Assembly (NCBI RefSeq): GCF_038446525.1
Contig: NZ_CP151792.1
Location: forward strand, 2,480,001-2,544,000
DNA length: 64,000 nucleotides
Reading direction: 5' to 3'
Origin: Methanolobus sp. ZRKC5
GTDB taxonomy: Archaea > Halobacteriota > Methanosarcinia > Methanosarcinales > Methanosarcinaceae
The notes under the pieces were generated by a model. The model was not told where the DNA came from. It worked only from the letters and a program-made list of their open reading frames with translations, and made no database searches. Below are positions 26,547-42,956 of the stretch, piece by piece (position 1 is the stretch's first letter; each line of letters starts with the position of its first letter). Position numbers and translations under genes: made by a program.

Positions 26547-27221
26547 ATGAGCTACGTTTATGCAGCAGTGGTAGGCATACTAATAGGCATCTTCATATTT
26601 GGTTTGAAGACCGGAGTAGGATGTGGTTTTTCCACTGTCAGAAAAAGAGATATCCTGATACTTGCAAGCAGTTACTTTGTCATTTCCATAATACTTGGGA
26701 GTCTTGTGGAAATAGTGGACCAATCCTATATTGAAGCTATTTCAAATCTTGGAATGACATTACATGTATTCATAGCACTTGTCCTCATTGGTGCAGGCAT
26801 ATATACACAGAAAAAATGGTCTTGTGGCCATGACGTTTCCAAAAAGACGTTCCTTGTGATCTCCGTACCATGCCCGGTTTGCCTTACAGCTCTTTTTGTT
26901 TCATGCATGATACTGGCATCAACCCTTGAGGTCAGCGGCTGGAAGGTCGGGGTACTTGTAGGATTTGTTTTCTTTATCTCAGTAATATCATCAACATGGG
27001 TCTTCAGAAAAATGAAAAGAACACCTGAAGATCTTGGAACAACAATGATGTTCCTTGGAATTTTCTACCTTCTAGGAGCGATGATAGTTCCAGCTTACAT
27101 CAAGGCAAAGAAACTCAACCTGGTACTAAGTAGCGGGGGAGAGTTCGAGATTATTCCACTGTTGGTATTCACCATTTTCATAATAGGGGGCTATGCCCTC
27201 AATAACATTAGAGGTCAATAA
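26547..27221 (+). CDS. DUF2162 predicted membrane transporter
   Basis: A 224-residue integral membrane protein with about six transmembrane helices. The N-terminal FGLKTGVGCGFS, WSCGHD and the in-membrane VPCPVCLTALFVSCM give it an unusual set of cysteines. It resembles DUF2162, a methanogen family annotated as predicted transporters, possibly within the LysE/DsbD-like superfamily. The ion or compound moved is unknown. It is the first gene of an operon with the ExbB-like and ExbD-like genes, directly upstream of the surface chelatases, so metal or tetrapyrrole movement is a reasonable hypothesis. The cysteines could bind a metal or carry redox equivalents. Confidence 0.78.
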   Translation: MSYVYAAVVGILIGIFIFGLKTGVGCGFSTVRKRDILILASSYFVISIILGSLVEIVDQSYIEAISNLGMTLHVFIALVLIGAGIYTQKKWSCGHDVSKKTFLVISVPCPVCLTALFVSCMILASTLEVSGWKVGVLVGFVFFISVISSTWVFRKMKRTPEDLGTTMMFLGIFYLLGAMIVPAYIKAKKLNLVLSSGGEFEIIPLLVFTIFIIGGYALNNIRGQ

Positions 27222-27223
27222 AA

Positions 27224-27847
27224 ATGGATGCTACTTCTTCATTGTTTGGTATATTGTACACATTTTCAGCTTCATTGCTGTACCCGGTGATCATCATTCT
27301 CATACTGCTGGTAGTCTTCTCCCTAATGCTTATAGGAGAATTCCTGTCAGAATATGCAAAAAGACATAGAGATATCGGAAACCTTGAACTGTGTTGTAAC
27401 AAGGTAAGAGAACATGTCAGCTCCCATAAATACGGAGAGGCTGCCAGTTCACTACGAAATATAAAGCAAAATTTCATGGTTACAAGTTTTGCGATTTCTG
27501 CTGCCGATCATCTTGAAAAGAACATGCTACCTGCTGTTGAATGGCTCTCCCAGGAATATGAGATAAGAATGGCAAAGAGACTTGAACAGACAAGGATCGT
27601 TGCAACTATCGCACCAATGCTCGGCCTGATGGGAACTCTTATTCCCCTTGGACCTGCACTTATAGGTCTTTCACAAGGAGATATCGTACAGCTTGCAAAC
27701 AACCTCATGATAGCTTTTGCTACAACAGTGATCGGTCTTTTCGCAGGAATTATCGGTTATGTGCTTACCCAGGTAAGAAAAAGATGGTACTGGCAGGATA
27801 TGGCTGATATAGACTATATCCTCGACACTCTGGAGGTTGCGGAGTGA
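27224..27847 (+). CDS. MotA/TolQ/ExbB-family proton channel protein
   Basis: A 207-residue protein of the MotA/TolQ/ExbB family, which conducts protons or sodium ions and drives movement of a partner protein. An N-terminal membrane helix (about residues 15-40) is followed by a cytoplasmic loop and then the paired C-terminal helices with IVATIAPMLGLMGTLIPLG and LMIAFATTVIGLFAGIIGYVL, the conserved family core. It begins 2 bp after the DUF2162 stop and overlaps the DUF2149 start by 4 bp, so the three genes are tightly coupled. Methanogens lack an outer membrane, so the energised target is unlikely to be a TonB-type receptor. Confidence 0.88.
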   Translation: MDATSSLFGILYTFSASLLYPVIIILILLVVFSLMLIGEFLSEYAKRHRDIGNLELCCNKVREHVSSHKYGEAASSLRNIKQNFMVTSFAISAADHLEKNMLPAVEWLSQEYEIRMAKRLEQTRIVATIAPMLGLMGTLIPLGPALIGLSQGDIVQLANNLMIAFATTVIGLFAGIIGYVLTQVRKRWYWQDMADIDYILDTLEVAE

Positions 27848-28212
27848 AGAGAAGAAGAAGCCGACGAACAGGACTCATAAATAATGAGGATGAACAAAAC
27901 CCCCTTACAGGGGTTGCCAACCTTTTTGATATTGCAATGGTTTTCTCAGTTGCACTCCTGGTAGCACTGGTTATGTCCTACCAGTTACCGGAACTTCTCA
28001 GTCCCACGGAAGATATAACGATAGTAAAGAATCCCGGACAAAAGGATATGAAAATAATCATCAAGGACCAGGGAAAACCCATTGAAGTTCTGAACATGAC
28101 CGACCAGATAGGCGGTGGAACAGGAGAGGCACTTGGTACAGCCTACAAACTGGCTGACGGAAGAGTTGTTTATGTGCCAGAAGAAGAGGGGGCAAATACT
28201 ACCTCGACTTAA
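27844..28212 (+). CDS. DUF2149, ExbD-like partner protein
   Basis: A 122-residue protein with a basic N-terminus, one membrane helix (FDIAMVFSVALLVALVMSY, residues 28-46) and a short extracytoplasmic domain. Asp29 at the start of the helix sits where ExbD and TolR carry their essential membrane aspartate. The layout matches ExbD: short cytoplasmic tail, one helix, external domain. The family name is DUF2149, with no established function. It starts at GTG 27844 overlapping the ExbB-like stop. A T-rich run follows the stop at 28212, so the downstream chelatase gene may have its own promoter. Confidence 0.78.
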   Translation: MKRRRSRRTGLINNEDEQNPLTGVANLFDIAMVFSVALLVALVMSYQLPELLSPTEDITIVKNPGQKDMKIIIKDQGKPIEVLNMTDQIGGGTGEALGTAYKLADGRVVYVPEEEGANTTST

Positions 28213-28231
28213 TTTTTTATTTTTTTTTATT
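28213..28231 (+). terminator. T-rich terminator after the ExbD-like gene
   Basis: A stretch of almost unbroken T follows the stop codon of the ExbD-like gene. U-rich tracts without a hairpin can terminate archaeal transcripts. A TTTATAG element about 35 bp further on may start the next transcript. Confidence 0.4.
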
Positions 28232-28311
28232 ATCATGAACGCAAGTTTATTTGTTTTAAAACAATTTATAGTTACTAAACCATAAAAATGGTGGATGAAA
28301 AGTCAGTATAA

Positions 28312-31300
28312 ATGGATCAGATGGTGGTCGGTATGATAGAAAAGAGAATAGTTAAAAAAAATTACATCGGAATTGCTGGAAAGATCAGTCTAATCTTTCT
28401 TTTAAGCATAGTTATGTTTTCATCTAGTGCAACCGCACTGGACCTGAGCCAGTTTGAGTTTGTTGCGAATACGACCAGTGACTCAAATGGAAATTTTACT
28501 TTTGAGAATATTCCAAATGGAGAATACGTCCTGTACTCAGTAAATGAATCATATTCTAAAAAATATGACGAATGGAGATGGTACAATGGAAAAATAGACA
28601 TAAAAGTAAATAGTTCAGACATTACAGGCCTTGAACTTGAAGTGGCCAGTGGATCAGATATAGATCAAAGCGAAGTATTGGCATATCTGGACAAGTCAGC
28701 AATAACAGGAAATACTTACCTCTATGCAATGAGCACCTATTACTACAAAGCAAGTACGTTGGTTCTCATTGACAAACAAACAGATGAACTTATAGCTAAC
28801 ACCACATCTGATAGCAGCGGTAATTTTACTTTTGAAGATATTCCAAATGGAGAATATGTCCTGTACTCGGTCAATGAATCATATTCTAAAAAGTATGATG
28901 AGTGGAGATGGTACAACGGAAAAGTGGACATAAAAGTAAACAGCTCAGACATTGCAGGCCTTGAACTTGAAGTGGCCAGCGGATCAGATATAGATCAAAG
29001 CGAAGTATTGGCATATCTGGACAAGTCAGCAATAACAGGAAATACTTACCTCTATGCAATGAGCACCTATTACTACAAAGCAAGTACGTTGGTTCTCATT
29101 GACAAACAAACAGATGAACTTATAGCTAACACCACATCTGATAGCAGCGGTAATTTTACTTTTGAAGATATTCCAAATGGAGAATATGTCCTGTACTCGG
29201 TCAATGAATCATATTCTAAAAAGTATGATGAGTGGAGATGGTACAATGGGAAAGTAGACATAAACATAAAAAGCTCAGACATTACAGACCTTGAGCTTGA
29301 AGTAGTCAGCGGATCAGATATAGATCAAAGCGAAGTATTGGCATATCTGGACAAATCAGCAATAACAGGAAATACTTACCTTTATGCAATGAGCACCTAT
29401 TACTACAAGACAAGTGATCTGGTTCTGCTGAAGCAAAGAGCATCTTCCATCACCAATGAGCCTCACCTGGATGTAGCAATAATTACCGGGTATTCATCAT
29501 ATGAGGAAGAACTTGCCAATTTCACAAACAGGGTTAATTCTAATCCTGAGCTAAACATAAATGTAAGTACATATATCACTACAAAATTGCCTGATAATAT
29601 TGATCTCAGCAATATGGATATAATTTACATAAAAATGGTTACGCAGAGTGCTTCAGAATTTGAGGATTCGCTTCAGGAAGCTATTGATAATGGCGCATTG
29701 GTAATTGGTCAGAATACATATTTGCCTGAGAGCAATTACACACTTCCGTCCAATCCAAATTATGATACAATTACTAAATTCAAAGATCATTTGGACGACT
29801 ACTGGTCTGGCGCTTCGTTAGATGACACAAACTTTGACAATCTCATATTCTATCTGGCACAGGAATATTATGGTCGTAATGATCTAACTGTAAAAGAACC
29901 CAGTGTGATACCAAAGGCAATTTATCACCCAGGAATGGAAAACATGCCTGCTGAATACCTCGTGGTCGATGCAGACGAGTATTTTGGCTGGTATGCCAAC
30001 AGAACAGATGGACATGCTTTCGATGAGAACGCACCAACCATAGGCATCACATTTTATGGCTCCTACTATCTGGATGACATGGAACCAATTGATAAAATCA
30101 TAGAGGGATTTGAAAGCAGAGGAGCGAATGTCATTGCATGTTACGGAAAATCAGGCTACTATCTTGAGCCCTATCTGAACCACAGCAGCCAGACAAAAGT
30201 TGATGCTGTTGTTTCCTTCCATTATCGTGGAAATTACTTTGATCTTGATGAACTTGGAGTGCCTGTTATGAATGCCATACTCAACGGGTACATGAACACA
30301 AGCCAGTGGATGGAAACCAGTACTCCGTTGCCAGTAACTAATATGCTAAGACTTTACAGACCTGAAACTGAAGGTGCTATTGATCCTATTATGATCGGAG
30401 CTCTGGAAACGATTGTTGAGGACGACAGTACAGTAGAAAAGTACATTGGACATGATGAACAGATTAACTGGCTAATTGAACGTACAATTGCTCAGGCAGA
30501 GCTTGGTATTGAAGAAGAATCTGACAAGAAGATAGCTATCATCTACTACAACCATGGTGGCGGAAAGGACAATATCGGTGCATCATATCTGGAAGTTGCA
30601 CCAAGTATTGTGAACCTCCTTGAAGGAATGGATGATGCTGGATACGACGTGAATGGAACACTCATACCAAACAAGACAGAACTCGTGGACCTCATGGTCT
30701 ATCAGGGAAGGAATGTTGGTACATGGGCTCCCGGGGAACTGGACAAGATGGTTGAGACCGGAAAGGTCGAACTCATACCTGAAAGCACATATTTGGGCTG
30801 GTTCAATGAACTTCCCGAAGTAAGAAGGACAGAAGTTATCGACATGTGGGGAGAGGCTCCCGGAGAGATAATGGTCTACACCGATGGCAATGATGACAGA
30901 TTTATCGTCATCCCGAAGATAAGCCTCAGTGACAATGTGATCCTTGCGCCACAGCCAACAAGAGGATGGTTGCAGGACAACGAAGTACTCTACCATGACG
31001 AGGAACTACCACCTCACCATCAATACATTGCATTTTATCTATGGATGCAGAACGAGTTCGATGCTGATGCAATGGTAAACATGGGAAGACATGGAACCGT
31101 TGAATGGTTACCTGGTAAGGATTTCTGCTTGCTCAGTGAGGAATGGCCTGCTATCATGACAGGTGACATACCTGTTGTATATCCATACGTAATGGATGGT
31201 ATGGGAGAAGGAATGCAGGCAAAACGCAGAGGCAATGCCGTTATCATTGACCACCTGATACCACCTGTAGTGTCTGCCGGAAGCTACGGTAATTACAGTG

Positions 31301-33585
31301 TGTTGAATGATAAGATCAATACCTACAAGACATCAGTCACAGAATCCGAATCACTTCTACAGGCTCATCTGCAGGACATAATAACCCTTACACTGGAGCT
31401 TGGCCTTGACAGCAGAGTGAACATGAGCCTTGCAGAGAACAATGCCACAGTAGATTTCTTCCTGGATGACCTGGATGACGTGCTAAGGGATCTGAGAAGC
31501 CAGTCCATGCCTTACGGACTTCACATACTTGGCGAAGCACCACAGGACGATGAACTTGTAGGTATGATCAATTCCATGCTTGGTGATGACTACACAGAGG
31601 CTGTTGCAGTCTACAACGAGTCTGAATCCGCACCATTGGACATACTCAGTCTTGTTCTGCTTGACAGCATGAACACAACAGATGCTCAGATGCAGGTACT
31701 ACTCGGTAACAGTTCCACAGATTTGGATGGTCACCTTGCCAATGCAATTGATTATGCAGCACTTCTGGTAGAAGCAGATAATGAAGTTGATCAGGTGCTC
31801 AAGGCAATGGATGGAGGATTCATCGAGCCAAACCTTGGTGGCGATCCGATACTCCGTCCTGACACTCTGCCAACAGGCAGGAACTTCTATGCATTCGATG
31901 AACAATTGATCCCAACAAAACATGCATGGGATGAGGGTACAGCACTGGTAGACCAATGGATAACCGATTACTATGCAGAACATGGTGAATACCCAAACAA
32001 GGCAGGATACATACTTTGGGCTGGAGAATCCACACGTCACGAAGGTGTAATGGAAGCACAGATATTCTATCTGCTTGGAGTCAAACCTGTCTGGGATGAG
32101 GACGATAGTGAAGTCGTTGATGTGGAACTGATACCAGCAGCTGAACTGGGAAGACCTCGCATCGATGTCATGGTACAAATATCAGGTCTTTACAGGGATA
32201 CATTCCCAATGAAGGTAGAACTCATCGATAAGGCAGTAAGACTTGCCTACGAGGATGAATCCGGCACCAATTATGTCAGGGAGAACACCGATGCTCTTCA
32301 GTCATCTCTTAATGATACCATCAGTAACTACAACCTGTCACTTGATATAGCACAGTTCAGGGTATTCGGTCCGGAGGACGGTTCCTACGGAACGGGAATG
32401 TCAAACGCTGTGTCAGCCAGTAACACCTGGGATGACAACAGCGAGCTTGCTGAGCTTTACATCAACAAGATGAGCTACATCTATGGCCAGAACCTCTGGG
32501 GACAGACTGTAGAGGAGTACATTAAGCAGCAGACAGGTGAGGATGTAAAGATCGATGATACATTTGTCTTTGAGAACATCCTGGACGGAACCGAAGTGCT
32601 TGTACACAGCAGAAGTTCCAACACTTACGGTGCCACAAACACCGATGAGTTCTTCCAGTACATGTCAGGTCTGGCCAATGCCATTGAACACATCTCCGGT
32701 GAAATGCCTGATCTTCTGGTAGCCAACCTGGAAAATCCTGACGACCTCGTGGTAGAGGACATGGAAACATACCTCGCGAACGAACTGTACACCGTTTTCA
32801 GTGATACTAACATTGAAGGATGGATGGCACATGGTTACGAGGGTGCCAGAATGATGATGAACTTCGTTGAGAACCTCTGGGGACTTGAAGCTCTGACACC
32901 TGGTCTTGTAACCGATGACATGTGGGACCAGACCTATGGAAAGTTCGTTGCAGACCAGGCAGTATCGGATTGGATGAAAGATGCTAGTCCCTATGCCTAT
33001 GAATCAACAACTGGCAGACTGATCGAAGTGGTTCGGACAGGAAACTGGAACCCTTCAGATAATGTTATGGAAGATATTGTGAACGAGTATATTGACACTG
33101 TTAACGATAATGGTGTTACATGCTGCCATCACACCTGTGGTAACCCAACACTTGATGAGTTCATCCAGAGTGAGATCGATTCCGGAAGGATTCAGGTGTC
33201 ACAAGAAAAGATGGACAAGTACAAGAAGATCATGGAGGAAACAAGGAATCCACTCCCGAAAACAGCAACTCCAACTTCAACTCCAAGTAGCAGCAAGAGT
33301 TCCAGTAGTACCGGAACTGAACTGAATGTTGTTGAAACCAGTGGAGGAAATCAGAGTAGCTTCACTGATTCCGGTGCAGGAGAAATACTGGAAGAAGAAG
33401 CTTCCCTGAAGTCACCTGTTGAAGACAGTTATGTCGAGGGCTATGAAATGACAAGGGAAACTGTTGAAGATGAATCTGAAAGCAGTCCCTATTCTATATC
33501 AGGCTCAGACATTGTAGCTTCTGTACTGGTGATTGGCCTTGTAGGAATTATGTATGTAGGATTCTGGAGAAGAAGGCAGTTCTGA
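28312..33585 (+). CDS. Surface CobN-type metallochelatase paralogue 1, with N-terminal repeats
   Basis: A 1757-residue protein. An N-terminal signal peptide is followed by three direct 110-residue beta-rich repeats (TTSDSSGNFTFEDIPNGEY type, transthyretin/carboxypeptidase-regulatory-like), then a full CobN/BchH-type chelatase large-subunit body. Chelatase landmarks are HGTVEWLPGK from residue 927, EGMQAKRRGNAVIIDHL, PYGLHILGEAP, and LPTGRNFYAFDEQLIPTK. Near the end are CCHHTCGN (from residue 1604), a Ser/Thr-rich linker, and a membrane helix ending WRRRQF. Cytoplasmic CobN inserts cobalt into hydrogenobyrinate diamide with CobS/CobT, none of which are encoded here. This protein is predicted to face outside, so the substrate and direction of metal movement are unknown. 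The start may be ATG 28333, which has GGTGG seven bases upstream. Confidence 0.85.
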   Translation: MDQMVVGMIEKRIVKKNYIGIAGKISLIFLLSIVMFSSSATALDLSQFEFVANTTSDSNGNFTFENIPNGEYVLYSVNESYSKKYDEWRWYNGKIDIKVNSSDITGLELEVASGSDIDQSEVLAYLDKSAITGNTYLYAMSTYYYKASTLVLIDKQTDELIANTTSDSSGNFTFEDIPNGEYVLYSVNESYSKKYDEWRWYNGKVDIKVNSSDIAGLELEVASGSDIDQSEVLAYLDKSAITGNTYLYAMSTYYYKASTLVLIDKQTDELIANTTSDSSGNFTFEDIPNGEYVLYSVNESYSKKYDEWRWYNGKVDINIKSSDITDLELEVVSGSDIDQSEVLAYLDKSAITGNTYLYAMSTYYYKTSDLVLLKQRASSITNEPHLDVAIITGYSSYEEELANFTNRVNSNPELNINVSTYITTKLPDNIDLSNMDIIYIKMVTQSASEFEDSLQEAIDNGALVIGQNTYLPESNYTLPSNPNYDTITKFKDHLDDYWSGASLDDTNFDNLIFYLAQEYYGRNDLTVKEPSVIPKAIYHPGMENMPAEYLVVDADEYFGWYANRTDGHAFDENAPTIGITFYGSYYLDDMEPIDKIIEGFESRGANVIACYGKSGYYLEPYLNHSSQTKVDAVVSFHYRGNYFDLDELGVPVMNAILNGYMNTSQWMETSTPLPVTNMLRLYRPETEGAIDPIMIGALETIVEDDSTVEKYIGHDEQINWLIERTIAQAELGIEEESDKKIAIIYYNHGGGKDNIGASYLEVAPSIVNLLEGMDDAGYDVNGTLIPNKTELVDLMVYQGRNVGTWAPGELDKMVETGKVELIPESTYLGWFNELPEVRRTEVIDMWGEAPGEIMVYTDGNDDRFIVIPKISLSDNVILAPQPTRGWLQDNEVLYHDEELPPHHQYIAFYLWMQNEFDADAMVNMGRHGTVEWLPGKDFCLLSEEWPAIMTGDIPVVYPYVMDGMGEGMQAKRRGNAVIIDHLIPPVVSAGSYGNYSVLNDKINTYKTSVTESESLLQAHLQDIITLTLELGLDSRVNMSLAENNATVDFFLDDLDDVLRDLRSQSMPYGLHILGEAPQDDELVGMINSMLGDDYTEAVAVYNESESAPLDILSLVLLDSMNTTDAQMQVLLGNSSTDLDGHLANAIDYAALLVEADNEVDQVLKAMDGGFIEPNLGGDPILRPDTLPTGRNFYAFDEQLIPTKHAWDEGTALVDQWITDYYAEHGEYPNKAGYILWAGESTRHEGVMEAQIFYLLGVKPVWDEDDSEVVDVELIPAAELGRPRIDVMVQISGLYRDTFPMKVELIDKAVRLAYEDESGTNYVRENTDALQSSLNDTISNYNLSLDIAQFRVFGPEDGSYGTGMSNAVSASNTWDDNSELAELYINKMSYIYGQNLWGQTVEEYIKQQTGEDVKIDDTFVFENILDGTEVLVHSRSSNTYGATNTDEFFQYMSGLANAIEHISGEMPDLLVANLENPDDLVVEDMETYLANELYTVFSDTNIEGWMAHGYEGARMMMNFVENLWGLEALTPGLVTDDMWDQTYGKFVADQAVSDWMKDASPYAYESTTGRLIEVVRTGNWNPSDNVMEDIVNEYIDTVNDNGVTCCHHTCGNPTLDEFIQSEIDSGRIQVSQEKMDKYKKIMEETRNPLPKTATPTSTPSSSKSSSSTGTELNVVETSGGNQSSFTDSGAGEILEEEASLKSPVEDSYVEGYEMTRETVEDESESSPYSISGSDIVASVLVIGLVGIMYVGFWRRRQF
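28468..29415 (+). repeat. Three 330-bp direct repeats inside chelatase paralogue 1
   Basis: Copies begin at 28468, 28798 and 29128, each 330 bp (110 codons), with the third ending near 29415 where it diverges. Long stretches of copies 2 and 3 are identical at the nucleotide level, including synonymous positions, while copy 1 differs slightly. The reading frame is kept. The pattern indicates recent duplication or gene conversion of a surface-exposed beta-domain. Copy 1 starts abruptly after the signal peptide, without the strand that precedes copies 2 and 3. Confidence 0.9.
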
Positions 33586-33594
33586 AGTGTTTTT

Positions 33595-33630
33595 GGCGCT
33601 TTTCAAAAAAAGCGCATTTTCTTTTTTTAT
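33595..33630 (+). terminator. Terminator after chelatase paralogue 1
   Basis: GCGCTTT / AAAGCGC hairpin followed by ATTTTCTTTTTTTA, 10 bp after the stop. Closely similar sequences follow paralogues 2 and 3. Confidence 0.7.
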
Positions 33631-33878
33631 CGCGAAAAAAGCGAAACTTTTATATATACAACAATTATTAGTTTTAACGATTACAAACCTAAGCTAACAT
33701 ATAGTTAATGTTGCTTATAGTGATGTAATTATAACCAATAGTGTAAATGGTGGTTTGTTGAAAAAATTATATATATATTCATTTAAACACACGTAGTGCT
33801 ATGCAGGAAGAAACGAAGTTTTGGAAAAGCATAGCCTATTTTATGCTTTTGTTGAGCTAGAATTATAACTATTATATA
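33631..33878 (+). promoter_or_regulatory. Promoter and upper leader of chelatase paralogue 2
   Basis: This non-coding stretch holds a TATATATAT box at about 33769-33778, predicting a transcript start near 33800 and a leader of about 140 nt before ATG 33940. A 7-bp helix GCTATGC (33798-33804) / GCATAGC (33829-33835) would form near the 5' end. The long leader is unusual among the genes of this window. Confidence 0.45.
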
Positions 33879-33942
33879 GCACTCCATTAAGCCGCCAAGC
33901 AAAAAATGGAGTGCTTGAAACACGTTATCGGGGGATAACATG
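33879..33942 (+). promoter_or_regulatory. Two-hairpin leader element at chelatase paralogue 2
   Basis: Hairpin 1 is a perfect 9-bp stem (GCACTCCAT 33879-33887 with 33906-33914) whose loop contains AGCCGCCAAGCAA. Hairpin 2 is GTTATC-GGGG-GATAAC (33924-33939), ending exactly at the ATG at 33940. The GGGGG within hairpin 2 (33930-33934) can pair with the 16S CCUCC tail through one G-U pair and is five bases from the start, so it is likely the ribosome-binding site held in a hairpin. The same design recurs at 38471-38530 with compensatory changes. This looks like a translational control element; it matches no riboswitch class I know. Confidence 0.6.
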
Positions 33943-36900
33943 CAATTAAGAATAAAATCGATATTAGTATTAAGTATATTGTTGTTGGTATCACTAACAA
34001 CTGTTGTATCGGCAGAAGAAAACCATGTAAATATTACATTGATTACTTATGATGATGCAGAAGTGATTGATTTTGCTAACCGTTCAAATCCTTATAATGA
34101 AAGCATAAATGTTCAATATTTTACAACAAAGAATAACCTCTCAGACATTGATCTGAGTAATCAGGATGTCATATTTACCTACATGCTATGGGGTTCTAAA
34201 TATGAAGAGTTCTCCAATGAAATGGAGAAAGCAAAAGGTAATGGAACCACCCTTGTGAACATTGCGAGTTACATTGACACCTCAATATACGATTATGACT
34301 TCGATGGTGGTGAACCCTACGAAAGTGACGATGAGAATTACTTCTTCAATATGGGAATGAAGGAAGAGTTTCTGAAAGCTAATGCTGAAAATTTCATTAT
34401 ATACCTTGCAAAGACCTATGGCAACAAATCAGCACTCACTGATAGCTGGGAATGTCAGCCTCCTGTACTACTCCCACAGGGTCTTTATCATCCGGATGAT
34501 GATGTTTACTGGTTTGACACCACAGAAGAATATCTGGAATGGTACCAGAATGAATCTGATGGTGAACATCACATATATGATCCTACCAAGCCTACGATTG
34601 GCATATGGTTCCATAAATCAGATTACAAGGATGGTAACACAGAGGTTGTCGACGCTCTTATATATGATCTTGAAAGCAAGGGCTGTAATGTTATAGCCGG
34701 CTTTGATACATTCCTTGATATCAGCGGATACTATTGTGATGAAAGTGGAACCCCACTGGTTCAGTGTATGATATCCCTCAAAAGCTTTGGACTGGACGTG
34801 AGCATGTATGATGGATATGGCCTAACCGAGCTTACAAATCTTGATGTTCCCGTACTGAAAGGTATGGTTGCTGATCCTGATTCAGGTGATCCGGCAGATG
34901 CTAACAGAGGTATCTCTAACGAAGAAGCCGTCAGAAAGACAGTAAGTCCAAACATCGACGGTATCTTCGAATATATTGTACTAGGACAGAGTAAGCAGAT
35001 AAAATATGGTGTCTACGAGTACGAACCTAATGATGCACAGATAAACTGGATGACTAACCGCTCTATCAAATGGGCAGAACTAAAGCGATTGGATAACGCG
35101 GAGAAAAAAGTTGGTGTTATTTATTACAACTATCCATCAGGTAAGGACAATATAGGAGCCAGTTACCTGGATACAATGTCAAGCATGATGAACCTGCTCA
35201 CCAAAATGAATGAAAGTGACTATAGTCTTGATAATGTTCCAGAGAACAAAACACTTCTTCAGGAAATGATTATGGAACAGGGGATAAATGCAGGTTCCTG
35301 GGCACCTGGTGTTCTTGAAGAAATGGTGAACAACCGAACTGAATGGGGACTGCAACTTATCCCAATGGATGAATATCAGGAATGGTTTGAGAATGAGTTA
35401 CCTCAAAACCTTAAAGACGATGTAATAAATGAGTGGGGAGTACCTTGGGCAGATGATTTCCCCGAAGACAAAAAACTCATGATGTGGGAAAATGAAACTG
35501 GAAAATATATTGTAATTCCAACAATCCAATGCGGCAACGTATGGCTCATGCCACAACCTGCCCGTGGTTCCCTTCAGAATGATAACGTGCTGTACCACAG
35601 CTCCGTTGTTCCTCCTACACACCAGTACATTGCCTTCTACCTCTGGCTTAACAAAGACTGGGATCCTGATGCCATTATCCATCTTGGTACTCACGGTACA
35701 CATGAATGGCTTCCAGGACTTGCATACGGTATGAACAGGACAGCCGACTGGGCACCACTTCTTCTGCAGGATTTACCTAACATATACCCATACATCGTGG
35801 CCAACATAGGAGAAGGACTGACAGCAGAATACCGTGGAAATGCTTTGATCATAGACCACCTCACGCCAACCCTTGAACGCGGAGGTCTGCATGGCGAGAT
35901 GGCTGATATTGCAGCAAATATCCAGGTGTACTATGACCCTGCAATTACAGATGAAGTTAGGAACGGTTACAGAGAAACAATAATTGACCAGATGGTAGAA
36001 CTCAATCTCCATAAGGATCTTGATGTGAATGAGACTATGATAGAAACCTACAGGGCAGACGATTCACAGTTCCAGGTCTTTGTAAAGAATGTGCTCCATG
36101 AATATCTGGAGGAGATTTCCGAGGAGAACATACCATATGGTTTCCATATACTCGGAGAAGTTCCACCTATGAACGAAAGTGGACCAGTGGATGACCAGAT
36201 ATCTGTAATGGTAAGGTCAATGCTTGGAAGCAGTTTTGAAACTCTGATATCCAGCACTTTCTATTCAGATACAACTGAGTACCCACTTGGAATACCCTAC
36301 AACGATACAAAAATTGACTGGCTTGTATGGGAAGTTGTTACTAACAACACTGACTCTGCACAGGCACAGGATATGGTATATGGATATAATGATTCATCAG
36401 TTACTGCTTTACTTGAAAGTGGAATAATACACAGAGATAACCTTATTGCATCAGCTACTGAGATTGATCGGGTTATAAATGCCCTGAATGCAGGCTTCGT
36501 ACCACCAGGACCAGGAAGAGACCCCATCCAGAATACGGATTCTGTACCCACAGGCCGTAATTTCTATGGAGTTGATTCGAGACTATATCCATCCCCAACC
36601 ACATGGGATCTTGGTTCCAGGCTTGCACAGGATCTGCTGGTGGATTACTATGACAAATATGGAGAATATCCACAGAAAGTATCATTCTCAAGATTCGGTG
36701 TGGAATTCATAAGGGACCACGGTACACTTGAAGCTGAGATGCTATACATGCTTGGAGTAAAACCAAAATGGGATGATACTTCCAAACAGGTAATTGGTCT
36801 TAAATTGATGAACGAGTCCGAACTTATGCCAAGCTATGGCGAATACCCCGGCAGACCTCGTATTGATGTTGTCTATGCAACCGCAGGAATGAGGGATGCA

Positions 36901-38247
36901 TTCCCCGACAAGCTCAAGATGATAGATGAGGCGGTAAGACTTGCAAACACTGCCCCATCTGGCAACCATACCAACTATGTGAATGAGAGTACAATCTCAA
37001 TAAAACAGGCATTGCTAGAGGCTGGCTACGATAATGAGACTGCGGATCAGATTTCCACAATGCGTTGTTTCGCTGTAAGAGACGGTACTTATGAGATTGG
37101 TATTTCCAATGCCATAGAAGCAAGTGGCACATGGGATGATGAAGCCCAGATAGGAGAACTTTACCTGAGTAAAATGGGATATGCCTACGGTACGGAACTC
37201 TGGGGTCAGCAATGTTCAGACCTACTCAAACAGAACCTTATGAATGTTGACGCTTCGGTACATTCAGATTCATCCAACCTCTATGATACACTGGACAATG
37301 ATGACTTCTTCCAGTATTTTGGAGGTCTCAACCTTGCAACCAGATATGTGTCCGGCAAAACGCCAGAGATGTATGTTTCAGACACAAGGGATTCTGAAAA
37401 TAGCGGAATGGTCACCATGCAGAAATATCTGAACACGAATCTGCGTTCCAGATACCTCAACGACAAGTGGATAGAAGGTATGATGAAGTATGATTATGCC
37501 GGTGCACGAATGATGTCTGAATTCGTGGACAATCTTTGGGGATGGGAAGTATCCAATCCAGAGCTTGTTGATGATAGTATGTGGGAGACCGTATATAACA
37601 CATACATAAACGACGAAATGAGGGAGTTTTTCAATGCAAACAACCCTGGTGCCTATCAGTCCATGACCGGCAGGATGCTGGAAGGTGTACGTAAAGGGTA
37701 TATCGATCTACCGGATGATATTGTCAATAACCTTGTGAATGAGTATATGGAGTCAGTTGCAGAGTATGGAGCAACATGCTGTCACCACACCTGTGGAAAT
37801 CCATCGCTTGATGGATTTGTTCAGGGTAATATACCAGCTGACCTTAGCCAGCAAGTGATAGATGACTACAATAAGCAGATGTTCGATGCAACACAGAGAG
37901 ATGAATTCCAGGTACAGAAACAGACAGAAACTGATTTACAAAAGGTTAAGGATGATTCACTCAACTCTGTCCAAAGAACAATGGCATCAGGATCAGGGTC
38001 ATCTAACCAGACCATGATGGCAAATTCCGGAGGAGCTGGTCTGGATTCTGACGCGCCTGTGCAGGATTCACCGAAATCAACCCCCGATAACTACGTTGAA
38101 GGCTACGAAATGACAAAGCAAAGTATCACGAACAATGATAATGCAAATAGTCCATCAGTATCCAGTTCTGATATAGTAGCTTCGGTATTTGTTCTTGGTG
38201 CATTAGGAGCTATGTATGTAGGATTCTGGAGAAGAAGGAAAGTCTAA
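33940..38247 (+). CDS. Surface CobN-type metallochelatase paralogue 2
   Basis: A 1435-residue protein with a clear signal peptide (ILVLSILLLVSLTTVVSA, cleavage near residue 26), the CobN/BchH chelatase body, and a C-terminal membrane helix ending GFWRRRKV. It keeps the full canonical motif HGTHEWLPG (from residue 585), then DLPNIYPYIVANIGEG and NALIIDHLTP, PYGFHILGEVP and VPTGRNFYGVD. CCHHTCGN starts at residue 1280. Of the three paralogues it is closest to ordinary CobN in the active-site motif, so it is the best candidate for real chelatase activity. No cytoplasmic AAA+ partner (CobS/ChlI-like) is encoded nearby. Expression is probably controlled by the two-hairpin leader. Confidence 0.87.
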   Translation: MQLRIKSILVLSILLLVSLTTVVSAEENHVNITLITYDDAEVIDFANRSNPYNESINVQYFTTKNNLSDIDLSNQDVIFTYMLWGSKYEEFSNEMEKAKGNGTTLVNIASYIDTSIYDYDFDGGEPYESDDENYFFNMGMKEEFLKANAENFIIYLAKTYGNKSALTDSWECQPPVLLPQGLYHPDDDVYWFDTTEEYLEWYQNESDGEHHIYDPTKPTIGIWFHKSDYKDGNTEVVDALIYDLESKGCNVIAGFDTFLDISGYYCDESGTPLVQCMISLKSFGLDVSMYDGYGLTELTNLDVPVLKGMVADPDSGDPADANRGISNEEAVRKTVSPNIDGIFEYIVLGQSKQIKYGVYEYEPNDAQINWMTNRSIKWAELKRLDNAEKKVGVIYYNYPSGKDNIGASYLDTMSSMMNLLTKMNESDYSLDNVPENKTLLQEMIMEQGINAGSWAPGVLEEMVNNRTEWGLQLIPMDEYQEWFENELPQNLKDDVINEWGVPWADDFPEDKKLMMWENETGKYIVIPTIQCGNVWLMPQPARGSLQNDNVLYHSSVVPPTHQYIAFYLWLNKDWDPDAIIHLGTHGTHEWLPGLAYGMNRTADWAPLLLQDLPNIYPYIVANIGEGLTAEYRGNALIIDHLTPTLERGGLHGEMADIAANIQVYYDPAITDEVRNGYRETIIDQMVELNLHKDLDVNETMIETYRADDSQFQVFVKNVLHEYLEEISEENIPYGFHILGEVPPMNESGPVDDQISVMVRSMLGSSFETLISSTFYSDTTEYPLGIPYNDTKIDWLVWEVVTNNTDSAQAQDMVYGYNDSSVTALLESGIIHRDNLIASATEIDRVINALNAGFVPPGPGRDPIQNTDSVPTGRNFYGVDSRLYPSPTTWDLGSRLAQDLLVDYYDKYGEYPQKVSFSRFGVEFIRDHGTLEAEMLYMLGVKPKWDDTSKQVIGLKLMNESELMPSYGEYPGRPRIDVVYATAGMRDAFPDKLKMIDEAVRLANTAPSGNHTNYVNESTISIKQALLEAGYDNETADQISTMRCFAVRDGTYEIGISNAIEASGTWDDEAQIGELYLSKMGYAYGTELWGQQCSDLLKQNLMNVDASVHSDSSNLYDTLDNDDFFQYFGGLNLATRYVSGKTPEMYVSDTRDSENSGMVTMQKYLNTNLRSRYLNDKWIEGMMKYDYAGARMMSEFVDNLWGWEVSNPELVDDSMWETVYNTYINDEMREFFNANNPGAYQSMTGRMLEGVRKGYIDLPDDIVNNLVNEYMESVAEYGATCCHHTCGNPSLDGFVQGNIPADLSQQVIDDYNKQMFDATQRDEFQVQKQTETDLQKVKDDSLNSVQRTMASGSGSSNQTMMANSGGAGLDSDAPVQDSPKSTPDNYVEGYEMTKQSITNNDNANSPSVSSSDIVASVFVLGALGAMYVGFWRRRKV

Positions 38248-38256
38248 AGTGTTTTT

Positions 38257-38290
38257 GGCGCTTTTCAAAGAAAGCGTCTTTTCTTTTTTA
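38257..38290 (+). terminator. Terminator after chelatase paralogue 2
   Basis: GGCGCTTTTC with AAAGCGTC forms a hairpin followed by TTTTCTTTTTTA. It is almost the same as the terminator after paralogue 1. Confidence 0.7.
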
Positions 38291-38470
38291 TTTTTTCAAA
38301 GTTAATGAATTGTTTTATAAGCACGAACATGTATATTTGTTTTAGCTAATACATGTTTGCACAATCATAATATATGTAGCATTTTTGAATATTTGTATAA
38401 TTGAAAGAAATTCTATGTGAAACGAGGATGATGATCAAGAAGTTATGAATTAATAAAACAATGGTCGTGA
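38291..38470 (+). promoter_or_regulatory. Promoter and upper leader before the mini-ORF and paralogue 3
   Basis: Non-coding, AT-rich. A TTTTATAA box at about 38313-38320 would start transcription near 38343, giving a leader of about 190 nt to the mini-ORF start at 38531. A second TATA-like sequence, ATATATG, lies near 38368. Apart from GAAACGA, shared with the upper leader of paralogue 2, little is conserved between the two upper leaders. Confidence 0.35.
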
Positions 38471-38533
38471 ACACTCCTGTTCAGCCGCCAAGCAATTGCA
38501 GGAGTGTCCTACACATTGTCGGGGGACAATATG
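38471..38533 (+). promoter_or_regulatory. Two-hairpin leader element before the signal-peptide mini-ORF
   Basis: Hairpin 1 is ACACTCCTG (38471-38479) with 38499-38507, with a loop containing AGCCGCCAAGCAA. Hairpin 2 is ATTGTC-GGGG-GACAAT (38515-38530), directly abutting ATG 38531. Compared with the element at 33879, hairpin 2 has two compensatory pair changes (G-C to A-T, and A-T to G-C), and the base of hairpin 1 also differs with pairing kept. Loop sequences and the GGGGG ribosome-binding site are unchanged. Confidence 0.6.
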
Positions 38534-38641
38534 CAGTGTAAATATATAATATTTATAATATTAAGTTTTTCCCTATTTTTTTCAATAACGAATGTCTCAT
38601 CAGCTGATTATCATAGTATAGATCAAATAAACTTGATTTAA
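38531..38641 (+). CDS. 36-residue signal-peptide mini-ORF
   Basis: ATG 38531 directly follows the hairpin-2 stem of the leader element and opens a 36-codon frame: a strongly hydrophobic core (YIIFIILSFSLFFSITNVSSA), a signal-peptidase-like site, then eleven further residues and TAA. It resembles the first 36 residues of a surface chelatase such as paralogue 2. It may be the remnant of a decayed fourth paralogue, or a leader peptide that couples the leader RNA to translation of paralogue 3, whose start is 38 bp downstream. Whether it is translated is unknown. Confidence 0.45.
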   Translation: MQCKYIIFIILSFSLFFSITNVSSADYHSIDQINLI

Positions 38642-38678
38642 ATCAACTTACATAACTAACTTGGTGGTGAGGTACGAT

Positions 38679-41600
38679 ATGGTACTTAAAAACATTAAAA
38701 AATACAGGAATATCTTTGCAGCAGCTCTTATAATAGTATTCTTAGCAACAGCATTTGCTGCTGCAGAGAGTGCTGGTAACGATACAATAAATACAACTGA
38801 CAATGCAGTAGATTCAGCCTTATCGGAAAACGATACAATAGCTGTAAATACTTCTATTATAGTGAAAATACCGGACATGGATATAAGGCCAAAAATAAGC
38901 TATGTGCTATCCCGTCCTTATGCGGTCACACTTATGCAGAACGTAGCTGCCGACCCGCAGATAAGTTCACAGATGGATATCAGTATCTATCTTGGCACAT
39001 CATATGCAGACCTAGGTTTTGATCTGAGCGATCAGGACATGATTGTTCTTAGGAACCTTGATGCCTATGTTGTGGACAGCATTGCACCAACAGTAAATGA
39101 AGCGAAAACAAACGGTGCACATGTCGTCTCAATAGGAGAGACCTTGGAAGCTTACGGACTTCATAACGTAAATACATCAGATCCGCAGTACTCTGACATA
39201 AATCTTTATCAGGAGTACGCATCCCAGGAGAACTTCAACGGACTCACTACTTTCCTTGGGGTGAAGTTCTTCGGTTTGAACTACTCCATCACAGCACCTG
39301 TGGAAAGACCTGTCTACGGTATCTATCATCCACTTGCACCTCAGATATATGATAATCTCAATGATTACCTTGACTGGTACAGTTCAACAGGAACATATGA
39401 TACAGACAGTCCTACCATTGCAATAATAACCACCAGTTACAAAAGAGTGGAAAGGGACATGCCTCTGCTTGACCCGCTTGTTGAGGATATAGAAGGAAAA
39501 GGATACAATACGATTGTAACTACTTATGCTTACAAGGATGAAAAATCCCTTAGCTACCTTATGAAGGATAATATGTCCATTGCAGACGCTGCTATTATGA
39601 TATCACGTGGGTCACGTCTGCATTATTCAGACAATGAGCATGGAATTTCTGACCTTCAGACACTGAACATAACTGTCCTGAACGGTGCCCGCTTGTTTTC
39701 AGGAGTAAATGTGGAAGAATGGGAGAACAGTGTGCATGGTGTGCCGCCTGCTCAACAGTATCAGGTAGCTTATGCAGAACTTGATGGAATCATCGAGCCA
39801 ATAGTCATCAGCGGAAAAGCCATAGATGAGGCAACAGGAATCGAATATAACCAGCCAATTTATTATCAGATAGATTGGCTTGTCGACAGGACAATAGCCT
39901 GGACTGAACTGCACCAAAAATCGAATTCAGAGAAGAAAGTGGTTATACCATATTACAATCCTGAAGGCGGTAAAGCAGATATGGGCGCAGACATTGATTA
40001 TTATCTTGATGCACAGGCAAGTCTGGCAAACCTTCTTGAAGCTATGCAAGAGAGAGGTTATGATGTTGGCAGTGAGCCACTTCCAAATTCCAGTGAACTT
40101 GCAGATATGATGATGGAAAGCGGACACAATATTGGTAGCTGGGCTCCCGGAGAACTTACCAAATGTGTTGAGAATGGAAGCACAATACTCATACCTGAAT
40201 CCCAGTACAGGGAGTGGTTCGAAGAACTCCCACAGGATAAAATTGATGAAATGACAGCAATGTGGGGTGAAGCTCCTGGAAATATAATGGTCTATGAGAA
40301 TTCCACAGACAAATATCTGGTCATACCTGTGCTCGAATTCGGAAATGTTCTTCTTGCACCTGACCCACAACACGGATGGTCTTCAAGTGAAAAAGCAATG
40401 TATAACAATGCTTCATATCCACCAACACATCAGTGTTTTGCTTTCTACAAATACATGTCAAGGGAATATGAAGCCGACGCATTATTCACTATATTCTCAA
40501 GCGTTGAGCTGATGCCCGGTAAAGAATGCGGTCTTTCCGCAAAGGATTGGGGAGCACTCTTACTTGAAGATATGCCACATATCCACGTACTTCCAATGGA
40601 TGCAGAAGGTGTCTTTGACAGAAGAAGAGCAAATATGCTCATCATTGATTTCATGACACCGACAATAGTGCCGGCAGGTCTTTATGGCGACCTTGCAAAC
40701 CTCCAGCAGGAGATCACATTATTCAAACAAGCAACAGACAGCGTGGTGAAAGAGAGTTACAGAGAGAGTATCATAAACCAGACAAGAAACCTGAGCCTTG
40801 ACAATGACCTCAGTGTTGACCTTGACTCAATTTCAGGTGATGCAGACCTTACAGATGCTTTCATTAATGAACTCTCGAATTATCTCTATGAACTGAAGAC
40901 TGCCTACATGCCATACGGATCTCATATACTTGGTGAGGTTCCTGAAGGCGAGAGTCTCATCATGCTCATAAAAGGCATGCTTGGAGATGAATATGTAGAA
41001 CATGTGGAAACTCTTGGTGGAAACGAGGAACTTTCAGTATTACTATTGAATGAAACAATACTGAACGGAAGCTTTCCTTACGATGCACAAATAATGCTAC
41101 TTGGTCAGAACTCCACAGAACTTGGAAGTGACCTGGATCTGGCACTTGAGTATATGGAAAGGATACAGGACTGCGAATGTGAAATAACGAAGATACTCGA
41201 TGCACTTGACGGTACGTATATCACACCGGGACCATCCGGTGACCCTATCAGGAACCCTGATGCATTGCCAACAGGCAGGAATCTCTACACATTCGATGAC
41301 CGCCTCATCCCCACAAAAGCGGCATGGGATGTTGGTTCACAACTTGCAGACGATATACTTGCACTGAAACTTGAAGAAGATGGGCAATATCCTGAAAAGA
41401 TAGCGTTCCTGCTATGGTCTGTGGAAACAACAAGGAACCAGGGAGTTATGGAATCCGAGATATTCAAACTTCTGGGAGTAGAACCCTATTATGACAGCAA
41501 GAACAGAGTAAAAGGTTTCACACTAATCGATTCCGAGGAACTTGGCAGATCAAGGATAGATGTTATGGTGGTAACCTCAGGTCTTTACCGTGATGTGTAT

Positions 41601-42956
41601 CCGAGCAAGATTGAGCTCATAGATGAAGCTATCAGGATGGCGGCAGGAGCTGACAATGACACATATCCCAACTATGTGAAAATGCATTCCAGTGAAACAT
41701 ACCATAGCCTCATAGATGAAGGATACAATGAATCGATTGCATACAACCTGTCAGTTTCAAAGATATTCTGTCCCCCACCAGGAGGATATACACCTGGGAT
41801 ACAGGAAGCCATAAGCAGTGATACATGGGAAGATTCAGACGAGATCGCCGACCTCTACATTGACAGGATGGGATATATCTATGGTCAAGAAATATGGGGT
41901 GAGCATTACTCAAGTGTACTGGAGAAGAACCTTGCAGACGTTGATACTGCAGTGTTTAGCAGAACATCAAATCTTTACGGTGTGCTTGACCACAATATGG
42001 TAGCTGCCTATTTCGGTGGTTTGAGCATGTCAGTTGAAAGAATCAGCGGTTCTGCACCTGACATGTATATCAATGACCTCAGCAGCTCTGCAGACATTGA
42101 AACCCTGAGTGAGTTCCTTAACAAGGACTTACGCTCACGTTACCTGAATCCAAACTGGATAGAAGGAATGATGGGTAACGGTTTTGACGGTACAAGATAT
42201 ATGGATTCAGTCTTTGAAGTCCTGCATGTGTTTGATGTAACAGACCCATCTCTTGTTACTGATGATATGTGGAATGAGATGTATGATGTCTACGTCGAGG
42301 ACAAATATGGCCTTGGTGTAAGCGATTACCTTGAAACTACAAATCCATATGCATCCCAGTCAATGAAAGCTACATTACTGGAATCCGCTCGCACGGATTA
42401 TTGGAATCCATCTGATGGAGTGACCCACAATCTTGTGAAAGAATATGTTAGATCAGTTGTCGAAAATGATGTTACCTGCTGCCATCATACCTGTGGAAAT
42501 CCATTGCTTGATAAATTTATACAAGAAAATATGGATCCATCAGGAGTTAGCAAGAAAATGCAGGATGCATATAAGAAAAAAATGTACGATGCAACCCTGA
42601 GAGAAGTGGTCCAGACACCACAATCTGAGCAGGAAGAAACGGTTAGTAGCCGAAGTAGCAGTTCAGCCGGAACGGAGCTGAAGATCGTTGAATCCAGCTC
42701 TGAATCAGGGTCAACCAACCAGACAACTGCGACTGATTCCGGAGCAGGTATGGATGCTGATACACCTGTACAGGATGTACAACGGTCTACACCGGATGAT
42801 TACGTAGAAGGTTATGAAATGACAAAGCAAAGTGTCGCAAATACCGAAAGCTCAAGCGGTTTCTCAGTAACCGGTTCTGAGCTGGCAGCTTCTGTGCTGG
42901 TACTTGCCGGAGTAGGAGCTATGTATGTAGGATTCTGGAGAAAGAGGAAGTTCTAA
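38679..42956 (+). CDS. Surface CobN-type metallochelatase paralogue 3, altered active-site motif
   Basis: About 1425 residues. It begins at ATG 38679 (MVLKNIKKYRN), which has GGTGGTGAGG six bases upstream; a TTG at 38661 is within that ribosome-binding site. A signal peptide (AAALIIVFLATAFAAA) is followed by the CobN body and a C-terminal membrane helix ending WRKRKF. Most landmarks are kept (LPTGRNLYTFDDRLIPTK, PYGSHILGEVP, and CCHHTCGN from residue 1267). However, the HGTHEWLPG motif is replaced by FSSVELMPG (about residue 605), losing both histidines and keeping only the Glu and PG. The protein may be a non-catalytic binding subunit or have changed specificity. Confidence 0.85.
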   Translation: MVLKNIKKYRNIFAAALIIVFLATAFAAAESAGNDTINTTDNAVDSALSENDTIAVNTSIIVKIPDMDIRPKISYVLSRPYAVTLMQNVAADPQISSQMDISIYLGTSYADLGFDLSDQDMIVLRNLDAYVVDSIAPTVNEAKTNGAHVVSIGETLEAYGLHNVNTSDPQYSDINLYQEYASQENFNGLTTFLGVKFFGLNYSITAPVERPVYGIYHPLAPQIYDNLNDYLDWYSSTGTYDTDSPTIAIITTSYKRVERDMPLLDPLVEDIEGKGYNTIVTTYAYKDEKSLSYLMKDNMSIADAAIMISRGSRLHYSDNEHGISDLQTLNITVLNGARLFSGVNVEEWENSVHGVPPAQQYQVAYAELDGIIEPIVISGKAIDEATGIEYNQPIYYQIDWLVDRTIAWTELHQKSNSEKKVVIPYYNPEGGKADMGADIDYYLDAQASLANLLEAMQERGYDVGSEPLPNSSELADMMMESGHNIGSWAPGELTKCVENGSTILIPESQYREWFEELPQDKIDEMTAMWGEAPGNIMVYENSTDKYLVIPVLEFGNVLLAPDPQHGWSSSEKAMYNNASYPPTHQCFAFYKYMSREYEADALFTIFSSVELMPGKECGLSAKDWGALLLEDMPHIHVLPMDAEGVFDRRRANMLIIDFMTPTIVPAGLYGDLANLQQEITLFKQATDSVVKESYRESIINQTRNLSLDNDLSVDLDSISGDADLTDAFINELSNYLYELKTAYMPYGSHILGEVPEGESLIMLIKGMLGDEYVEHVETLGGNEELSVLLLNETILNGSFPYDAQIMLLGQNSTELGSDLDLALEYMERIQDCECEITKILDALDGTYITPGPSGDPIRNPDALPTGRNLYTFDDRLIPTKAAWDVGSQLADDILALKLEEDGQYPEKIAFLLWSVETTRNQGVMESEIFKLLGVEPYYDSKNRVKGFTLIDSEELGRSRIDVMVVTSGLYRDVYPSKIELIDEAIRMAAGADNDTYPNYVKMHSSETYHSLIDEGYNESIAYNLSVSKIFCPPPGGYTPGIQEAISSDTWEDSDEIADLYIDRMGYIYGQEIWGEHYSSVLEKNLADVDTAVFSRTSNLYGVLDHNMVAAYFGGLSMSVERISGSAPDMYINDLSSSADIETLSEFLNKDLRSRYLNPNWIEGMMGNGFDGTRYMDSVFEVLHVFDVTDPSLVTDDMWNEMYDVYVEDKYGLGVSDYLETTNPYASQSMKATLLESARTDYWNPSDGVTHNLVKEYVRSVVENDVTCCHHTCGNPLLDKFIQENMDPSGVSKKMQDAYKKKMYDATLREVVQTPQSEQEETVSSRSSSSAGTELKIVESSSESGSTNQTTATDSGAGMDADTPVQDVQRSTPDDYVEGYEMTKQSVANTESSSGFSVTGSELAASVLVLAGVGAMYVGFWRKRKF

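Follow-up and report, generated by a model that had tools for sequence, protein, structure and literature searches.

What would three relatives of the chelatase subunit CobN do on the outside of an archaeal cell, and why should they be encoded beside a pair of membrane proteins resembling the ion-driven motor ExbB-ExbD? The question is raised by a locus of Methanolobus sp. ZRKC5, which lies in a stretch of 64,000 nucleotides (hereafter the window) at 2.48-2.54 Mb of the 3.05-Mb single-contig genome. An original prediction, made from the sequence letters, had described here an operon for a DUF2162 protein, an ExbB-family protein, a DUF2149 protein and three membrane-anchored CobN-type proteins, and Pfam searches and hydropathy profiles confirmed this arrangement. 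We refer to the DUF2162 protein as T, the MotA/TolQ/ExbB protein as U, the DUF2149 protein as V and the CobN-like proteins as S1, S2 and S3. The features of the locus, in window positions, are as follows.

26547-27221, + strand: T, a DUF2162 polytopic membrane protein, predicted transporter (PF09930, E 3e-68)
27224-27847, + strand: U, a MotA/TolQ/ExbB-family channel protein with GLMGTLIP and FATTVxGL segments (PF01618, E 2e-12)
27844-28212, + strand: V, a DUF2149 protein with a basic N-terminus, one transmembrane helix and an outer domain of ~75 residues (PF09919, E 8e-35)
28312-33585, + strand: S1, anchored CobN-like protein, 1757 aa, catalytic-His motif GRHG kept (PF02514, motif alignment, tree clade)
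33873-33942, + strand: RNA leader of two hairpins, ending at the S2 start codon (cmsearch 71.3 bits, covariation, folding z -4.7)
33940-38247, + strand: S2, anchored CobN-like protein, 1435 aa, catalytic-His motif GTHG kept (PF02514, motif alignment, tree clade)
38466-38533, + strand: second copy of the RNA leader, upstream of S3 (cmsearch 77 bits)
38661-42956, + strand: S3, anchored CobN-like protein, 1431 aa, FTIFSS replacing xGTHG (PF02514, motif alignment)

S1-S3 are homologs of class-I chelatase H subunits and so related to enzymes that insert metals into rings of the vitamin B12 and heme type or remove them, each matching CobN-Mg_chel (PF02514) with an E-value of about 1e-290 or less, and no other PF02514 gene is present in the genome. 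Across genomes, anchored S proteins go together with U and V. We lean, if only slightly, towards regarding T-U-V-S as a cell-surface module for metal or tetrapyrrole acquisition, an ion-gradient-coupled surface (de)chelatase and archaeal relative of the Bacteroidota HmuSTUV. The narrower claim that the ion gradient powers the chelatase, with an ExbB/ExbD-like motor driving a surface CobN homolog that strips corrinoids, F430 or heme outside the cell of their metal, is put forward as a tentative and still doubtful possibility.

Within the locus, T and U are 2 bp apart, U and V overlap, and S1 follows V after 99 bp. The longer gaps upstream of S2 (354 bp) and S3 (413 bp) leave room for promoters, so that these two genes may each have their own. 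The real start of S3 is probably downstream of the annotated TTG.

U, V and S as neighbours across archaea and bacteria

The original prediction had named the co-occurrence of surface CobN with the ExbB/ExbD-like pair as its own test, and a survey of 120 genomes of the same class bears it out. V (PF09919) was detected in 84 genomes, T (PF09930) in 84 (83 over the cut-off) and CobN in 98. CobN was present in 83 of the 84 V-bearing genomes, and in the single exception (G115) an S gene is cut by the end of the contig. Among the 15 genomes having CobN without V, the complete CobN genes that we fetched were of the cytosolic kind, 1200-1300 aa long and devoid of anchors, the exception being an anchored fragment in G017, a draft of 150 contigs, where it lies at the edge of one of them.

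The gene order was compared at 80 loci from named genomes, with only scorable cases counted. U adjoins V in 76/77 loci and T adjoins in 61/75, while S lies no more than 9 kb away in 39 of the 49 loci that have full flanks. In most archaeal loci T is directly upstream of U. Since the order T-U-V-S recurs in Methanosarcinaceae, Methanothrix, anaerobic methanotrophic archaea (ANME-1/2/3), Methanoculleus and several bacterial phyla, the arrangement is not due to chance.

The bacterial loci also reveal which part of the module varies. The slot of T is occupied by DUF2162 in Trichlorobacter, by a protein weakly similar to NicO/DsbD in Runella and by HmuT in Bacteroides, whose relation to DUF2162 is not detectable; hhalign comparisons of T with the Bacteroides HmuT and with the Runella NicO-like protein were not significant. 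U-V-S without DUF2162 was found in Azospirillum, Comamonadaceae and Planctomycetota loci. On the Comamonadaceae plasmid, U, V and S stand by themselves, with neither T nor a TonB receptor annotated nearby, and in Azospirillum the S, U and V genes adjoin ABC-transporter genes along with nikR and a gene for a TonB-dependent receptor. A Paracoccus plasmid has a DUF2149 match next to which CobN is not annotated. Judged from these neighbourhoods, U-V-S forms a constant core in archaea and bacteria and the T slot varies. A proteome study of Methanosarcina barkeri had assumed that the rest of the operon was missing (PMC10846266), whereas U, V and S stay together in both domains.

The Trichlorobacter cluster contains T-U-V-S plus a complete ExbB-ExbD-TonB set. 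To our knowledge, archaea lack an outer membrane. Given this separate ExbB-ExbD-TonB set, the plasmid-borne U-V-S without an annotated T or TonB receptor, and the single membrane of archaea, U-V does not seem to serve for powering a TonB receptor; most simply, it would act on S. We infer this action of the motor on the chelatase from gene content.

The system has a precedent: hmuSTUV of Bacteroidota is its known counterpart, and archaeal homologs had been noticed before (PMC12583661, PMC10846266). Bacteroides, Prevotella and Aureibacter have clusters of the hmuY-(hmuR)-hmuS-hmuT-hmuU-hmuV type with DUF2149, an ExbB-family protein and CobN, and the Methanolobus locus shares with them an anchored CobN-like protein beside a MotA/TolQ/ExbB protein and DUF2149. 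It differs in having neither HmuY nor an HmuR/TonB receptor in a cell devoid of an outer membrane, in having DUF2162 without detectable homology in the HmuT slot, and in its three S paralogs. The purified HmuS of Bacteroides thetaiotaomicron, a membrane-bound, NADH-dependent heme de-chelatase that removes Fe and is inactivated by H538A, de-chelates heme with NADH and no U/V; HmuU/HmuV were assigned to powering the TonB-dependent receptor HmuR, the role of HmuT was left open, and the archaeal use of many HmuS/CobN/ChlH homologs was called unclear because complete hmu operons are absent (PMC12583661). One study of Porphyromonas gingivalis HmuS proposed HmuTUV as an inner-membrane heme transporter, with HmuT as a putative permease and HmuV without known homology (PMC13227078).

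The membrane components fit an ion-driven motor to different degrees. U scored 47.3 bits against a Pfam MotA_ExbB gathering cut-off of 22.9, carries the TM2-TM3 (transmembrane helices 2 and 3) signature of the MotA/TolQ/ExbB family and aligned with the Trichlorobacter ExbB through both conserved segments (hhalign E 1.6e-4). The GLxGTLIPxG and Thr-rich FATT segments are present in most U sequences across phyla. V resembles the partner proteins of ExbB-ExbD-TonB and MotAB/TolQR in its basic N-terminus, single transmembrane helix and acidic residue near the helix start; this residue, Asp29, does not vary among 46 relatives, and bacterial sequences have Asp or Glu there. Thus, of the predicted ExbD role of V, the invariant Asp29 and the single helix stand, and homology to ExbD is not borne out by sequence: the likeness appears to be one of shared plan. 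The system is also unlike ExbB-ExbD-TonB in lacking TonB. Structure prediction of V was poor (predicted local distance difference test score, pLDDT, 59.6). In T, Lys21, the GCG motif (Cys26) and Pro-Cys-Pro-x-Cys (108-112) are invariant in a 47-sequence alignment, and the cysteines could serve metal passage or redox. Its AlphaFold2 (AF2) model is all-helical (pLDDT 79.5, predicted template modelling score, pTM, 0.67), and a fold search with the model against the PDB returned nothing at E 0.001.

Topology, residues and ancestry of the chelatase homologs

S1, S2 and S3 each have a hydrophobic segment at both the N-terminus and the C-terminus. The C-terminal segments are followed by basic tails (RRRQF, RRRKV and RKRKF in the three proteins), which by the positive-inside rule places the chelatase body of ~1200 residues outside the membrane, a topology that we regard as strongly predicted. 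S1 has three transthyretin/CarboxypepD-like repeats between its signal peptide and the chelatase body; this N-terminal region is variable among S relatives, whose total lengths reach 2616 aa.

The top PDB match for S1 was HmuS (9d26), and we compared residues with the B. finegoldii HmuS, whose numbering is consistent with that of the HmuS paper. At the position of the catalytic His538, which in HmuS belongs to the motif HFG(T/A)HG, S1 (NMGRHG) and S2 (HLGTHG) keep the histidine as HmuS does, whereas S3 has FTIFSS. The loss, a point absent from the original prediction, is common to five related sequences from Methanosarcinaceae, Methanoculleus and Methanofollis and is therefore not a local defect. 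By this comparison S3 is a maintained paralog that would be non-catalytic or work differently, probably a binding or helper subunit.

Other hallmarks of HmuS are missing. The segment LSLDHxxEFMGG with His1209 and Glu1212 is not kept, the corresponding sequences being TNTDEFFQYMSG in S1, LDNDDFFQYFGG in S2 and LDHNMVAAYFGG in S3; in S1, S2 and most archaeal relatives the two positions are Asp/Glu and Gln, as in CobN. Nor are Met79 and His254, the heme ligands, conserved in register: S1 and S2 have a Met close to the former position, though not aligned with it, and the His254 region reads HYRG in S1 (with the His aligned by phmmer), KSF in S2 and RGS in S3. Inspection by eye of S1 around residues 1069-1141 found no counterpart of the Met-rich insertion of HmuS domain IV. 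With several HmuS-defining residues absent when checked, we do not assign S1-S3 to HmuS proper. The CobN-like residues would be compatible with either direction of the reaction.

In an unrooted tree of 71 proteins, built by a quick method and containing some long branches, a branch with 99% support separates cytosolic CobN and BchH from the anchored proteins. S1, S2 and S3 fall into three separate clades, each with 100% support and common to several genera, so that the duplications giving rise to the paralogs appear to be old. Thus, S1-S3 share with CobNST/ChlHID the CobN-Mg_chel domain and the Asp/Glu and Gln residues, and differ from them in their location outside the membrane, their anchors, their separate clade and the lack of a dedicated AAA+ partner.

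This last difference, which the original prediction had proposed, was seen in at least 12 near-complete genomes (G003, G006, G008, G018, G020, G042, G046, G048, G054, G056, G066 and G097) that encode CobN and V and gave AAA+ matches only at background level (E 1e-7 to 1e-4, compared with about 1e-146 or better for clear matches). Cytosolic CobN genes of the surveyed genomes, such as those in G117, G064, G026 and G104, have a full Cob-chelat-sub gene of the I/D type in their vicinity. The Methanolobus genome has a ChlI/ChlD-like AAA+ (I/D) pair 1.3 Mb from the S cluster, and the same pair is present in genomes without any CobN (G072, G052, G070 and G118). As the pair is missing from S-bearing genomes and present in CobN-less ones, the anchored S proteins do not depend on an AAA+ partner.

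An RNA leader upstream of S genes

A second feature absent from the original prediction is a covarying two-hairpin RNA that is new and not in Rfam 15; the search gave no match at gathering and, for the S2 leader, none up to E 5. Hairpin 1 has a 9-10-bp stem and the conserved loop AGCCGCCAAGCAA. Hairpin 2, GUUAUC-GGGG-GAUAAC or AUUGUC-GGGG-GACAAU, contains the likely ribosome-binding site and ends at an AUG; the former version stands directly before the AUG of S2. Over 35 leader sequences, 92.5% of the cells are paired (50% or less when the sequences are slid) and 71 cells are changed on both sides as against 25.8 in shuffles. Folding was more stable than that of shuffled sequences (z -2.9 to -5.4).

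The covariance model matched in 43 of the 120 genomes; the two window copies are among its own training sequences, and their scores of 71.3 and 77 bits should be read so. By coordinates, most sites are just downstream of V, and the outlying sites that we opened precede S genes or S remnants. Exceptions are a leader-like site in G054 that lies upstream of T, a single weak CRISPR-like match and weak antisense matches. Attempts to deduce a ligand from other genomic sites failed, as all convincing matches examined precede S genes or their remnants. To judge from its position, the leader probably controls the translation of a subset of S genes, which at this locus includes S2.

S1 has no leader copy before it. 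At the second window copy, AUG 38531 opens a signal-peptide-like reading frame of ~36 codons (by eye) and not S3 itself; it is probably the remnant of another, lost S gene. Tandem S copies and shortened S remnants behind intact leaders were observed at two other loci (L251, L099) as well as at window position 38531, which suggests gene turnover within the S cluster.

Substrates and competing explanations

Neighbouring genes in relatives point to cobalt, nickel and tetrapyrrole uptake, in line with the predicted metal/tetrapyrrole role. At ANME-1-type loci, S is followed by CbiM, CbiN, CbiQ, CbiO, CbiT and CbiL (L192) or by CbiT, CbiL, CbiF/G and CobD (L172); the genes after S at L189 and L184 have N-termini like those of these cbi genes (by eye), and CbiM, CbiQ and an ABC ATPase lie upstream of T at L177, with L170 similar by eye. 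The cofactor served in ANME-1 is thus most likely a corrinoid, containing cobalt, on the basis of these neighbours. Bacterial contexts include nickel (NikR and hyp genes, the latter accompanying NicO-like T), corrinoids (cobT and bzaF, alongside a separate ExbB-ExbD-TonB) and, in Bacteroidota, heme (HmuY). As far as gene neighbours indicate, the common denominator is metal-containing tetrapyrroles and the supply of Co, Ni and Fe; the metal for the three Methanolobus paralogs may be any of these.

Downstream of V in Methanothrix come a DUF4430 protein (weak match) and an alpha/alpha-toroid protein (L193:9549-12095 and L195:9549-12072). The pair resembles the two halves of intrinsic factor/transcobalamin and is possibly an archaeal corrinoid-binding pair. 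DUF4430 matches also occur within the reading frames of long CobN genes in Methanothrix-family genomes. This proximity or fusion to S recalls the transcobalamin-like SLBB/DUF4430 proteins (PMC1796856), unlike which the Methanolobus genome of the window has no DUF4430 match at E 0.001. In Ethanoperedens, an ArsR-type helix-turn-helix fused to DUF4430 is encoded divergently upstream of T (L163:7230-7751, - strand), a candidate tetrapyrrole-sensing regulator. Methanosarcina likewise has a divergent ArsR-type protein upstream of T, and ArsR-SLBB fusions of Methanosarcina were predicted earlier to sense B12 or related ligands (PMC1796856). Expression data from other methanogens concern related or similarly annotated genes: in M. 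barkeri, cultures with Fe(II)/cysteine or FeS2 had higher levels of two CobN-like BtuS proteins than cultures with Fe(II)/sulfide (PMC10846266), and nickel limitation was the only condition in which a CobN1-annotated protein of a hydrogenotrophic methanogen was abundant (PMC12350162).

We propose the following sequence of events. S, displayed outside the cell as predicted, would bind an external metallo-tetrapyrrole or metal chelate, as its family and gene context suggest, and the metal would be removed at the conserved His site of S1/S2, by analogy with HmuS. U-V, as an ExbB/ExbD-like ion-driven motor, would then work on S through the outer domain of V, in loading, opening or product release, and would take over from the AAA+ partner that uses ATP to drive cytosolic CobN; the U-V-S core, the absence of AAA+ and the lack of an outer membrane argue for this step. 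The freed metal might enter via T or an ordinary Co/Ni/Fe importer (energy-coupling factor (ECF) type or Feo). S3, without the His, would be a binding or helper subunit, and the RNA leader would control translation of S2.

Several observations weigh against this proposal. Neither the heme ligands Met79/His254 nor the His1209/Glu1212 pair is kept in S1-S3, which means that heme need not be the substrate, and since purified HmuS works without U/V (PMC12583661), the motor may be unneeded for the chemistry. V gave no ExbD profile match, DUF2149 being its sole Pfam family over the cut-off, and its hhalign comparison with one ExbD was not significant (E 0.4), though both Asp residues align. No metal-transport or corrin gene adjoins the Methanolobus locus. 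Finally, some T-U-V loci have no nearby S, and some U-V pairs adjoin S-layer genes.

The latter include a second Methanolobus U-V pair without T or S (L126:4829-9336), which follows genes for an S-layer protein (PF07752) and CARDB; L150 and L157, also Methanolobus, have neighbours of similar size. The window genome itself retains a remnant of DUF2149, 29 codons long (G000:C1:2729047-2729133), in the vicinity of an S-layer-like frame. Such second U-V pairs may serve another surface partner.

Other explanations place the metal, or the motor, elsewhere. S could be a surface receptor that captures an intact corrinoid or tetrapyrrole, which U-V-T would import with the metal retained, in the manner of a TonB system for a single membrane. 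The transcobalamin-like domains (DUF4430) that adjoin S or form part of it, the retention of the His-less S3 clade in several genera and the proposal of HmuTUV as an inner-membrane heme transporter (PMC13227078) all speak for a receptor; yet S1 and S2 retain the His needed for HmuS de-chelation, several U-V-S loci have no conserved T, and neighbours for corrin synthesis and free-cobalt import suggest free metal and not an intact cofactor. We regard the receptor as unlikely, although well worth keeping in mind. The position of T directly before U in most archaeal loci, together with its polytopic nature and conserved Cys and Lys, would also suit a scheme in which U-V supply energy to the transporter T, with S as a separate enzyme encoded in the same operon, but the U-V-S loci of Azospirillum, Comamonadaceae and Planctomycetota have no DUF2162 and the T slot is non-orthologous in Bacteroides and Runella, which makes this scheme improbable.

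Reversal of the chemistry, with S acting at the surface to insert a metal, such as Co or Ni, into a tetrapyrrole, would agree with the CobN-like Asp/Glu at the HmuS His1209 position and with the corrin genes nearby in ANME-1. However, we know of no extracellular metal-free tetrapyrrole in methanogens, and in the anaerobic corrin and F430 routes Co and Ni are inserted early, in the cytosol, by CbiX/CfbA-type enzymes. As the characterised anchored relative HmuS also runs in the direction of removal (PMC12583661), we consider insertion very improbable. That the CobN genes encode ordinary cobaltochelatases acting in B12 synthesis in the cytosol, as the automatic model match to CobN and the distant ChlI/ChlD-like pair might imply, has next to no probability in our judgement. 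This identity was rejected on account of the signal peptide and C-terminal anchor of S1-S3, the separation of their clade from cytosolic CobN, and the occurrence of the AAA+ pair in CobN-less genomes together with its absence from 12 S-bearing ones.

Some further genes of the window deserve mention. The prediction had pointed to F430 genes in the same window; cfbB, cfbC, cfbD and cfbE are indeed there (11345-16305), but as a distant, separate cluster on the minus strand, ~10 kb upstream of T. The S cluster is followed by two giant surface subtilases (43162-48972 and 49095-53423), the second carrying PF00082 and PGF-pre-PGF and the first being its homolog. Homologous proteases adjoin S genes in several Methanolobus loci, and they might free tetrapyrroles from proteins. 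At 60717-61519 (- strand), two neighbouring reading frames resemble a split, IS5-like transposase (by eye).

What this comparison adds, on sequence grounds, is an archaeal variant of the HmuSTUV kind, an RNA element and comparative evidence linking the ExbB/ExbD-like pair to the chelatase. Because archaea have neither outer membrane nor TonB receptor, and Trichlorobacter has U-V beside a separate ExbB-ExbD-TonB, the assignment of HmuU/HmuV to HmuR is in doubt. If an ion gradient does power the chelatase, HmuU/HmuV of Bacteroidota would likewise act on HmuS and not on the TonB-dependent receptor, and a dedicated RNA switch would control the enzyme. The idea is testable in the genetically tractable Methanosarcina and in Bacteroides thetaiotaomicron. 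The gene contents suggest a means by which archaea could gather cobalt, nickel or iron, where these are scarce, at their surface, which, if true, would give methanogens and methane oxidisers an added supply route for these metals.

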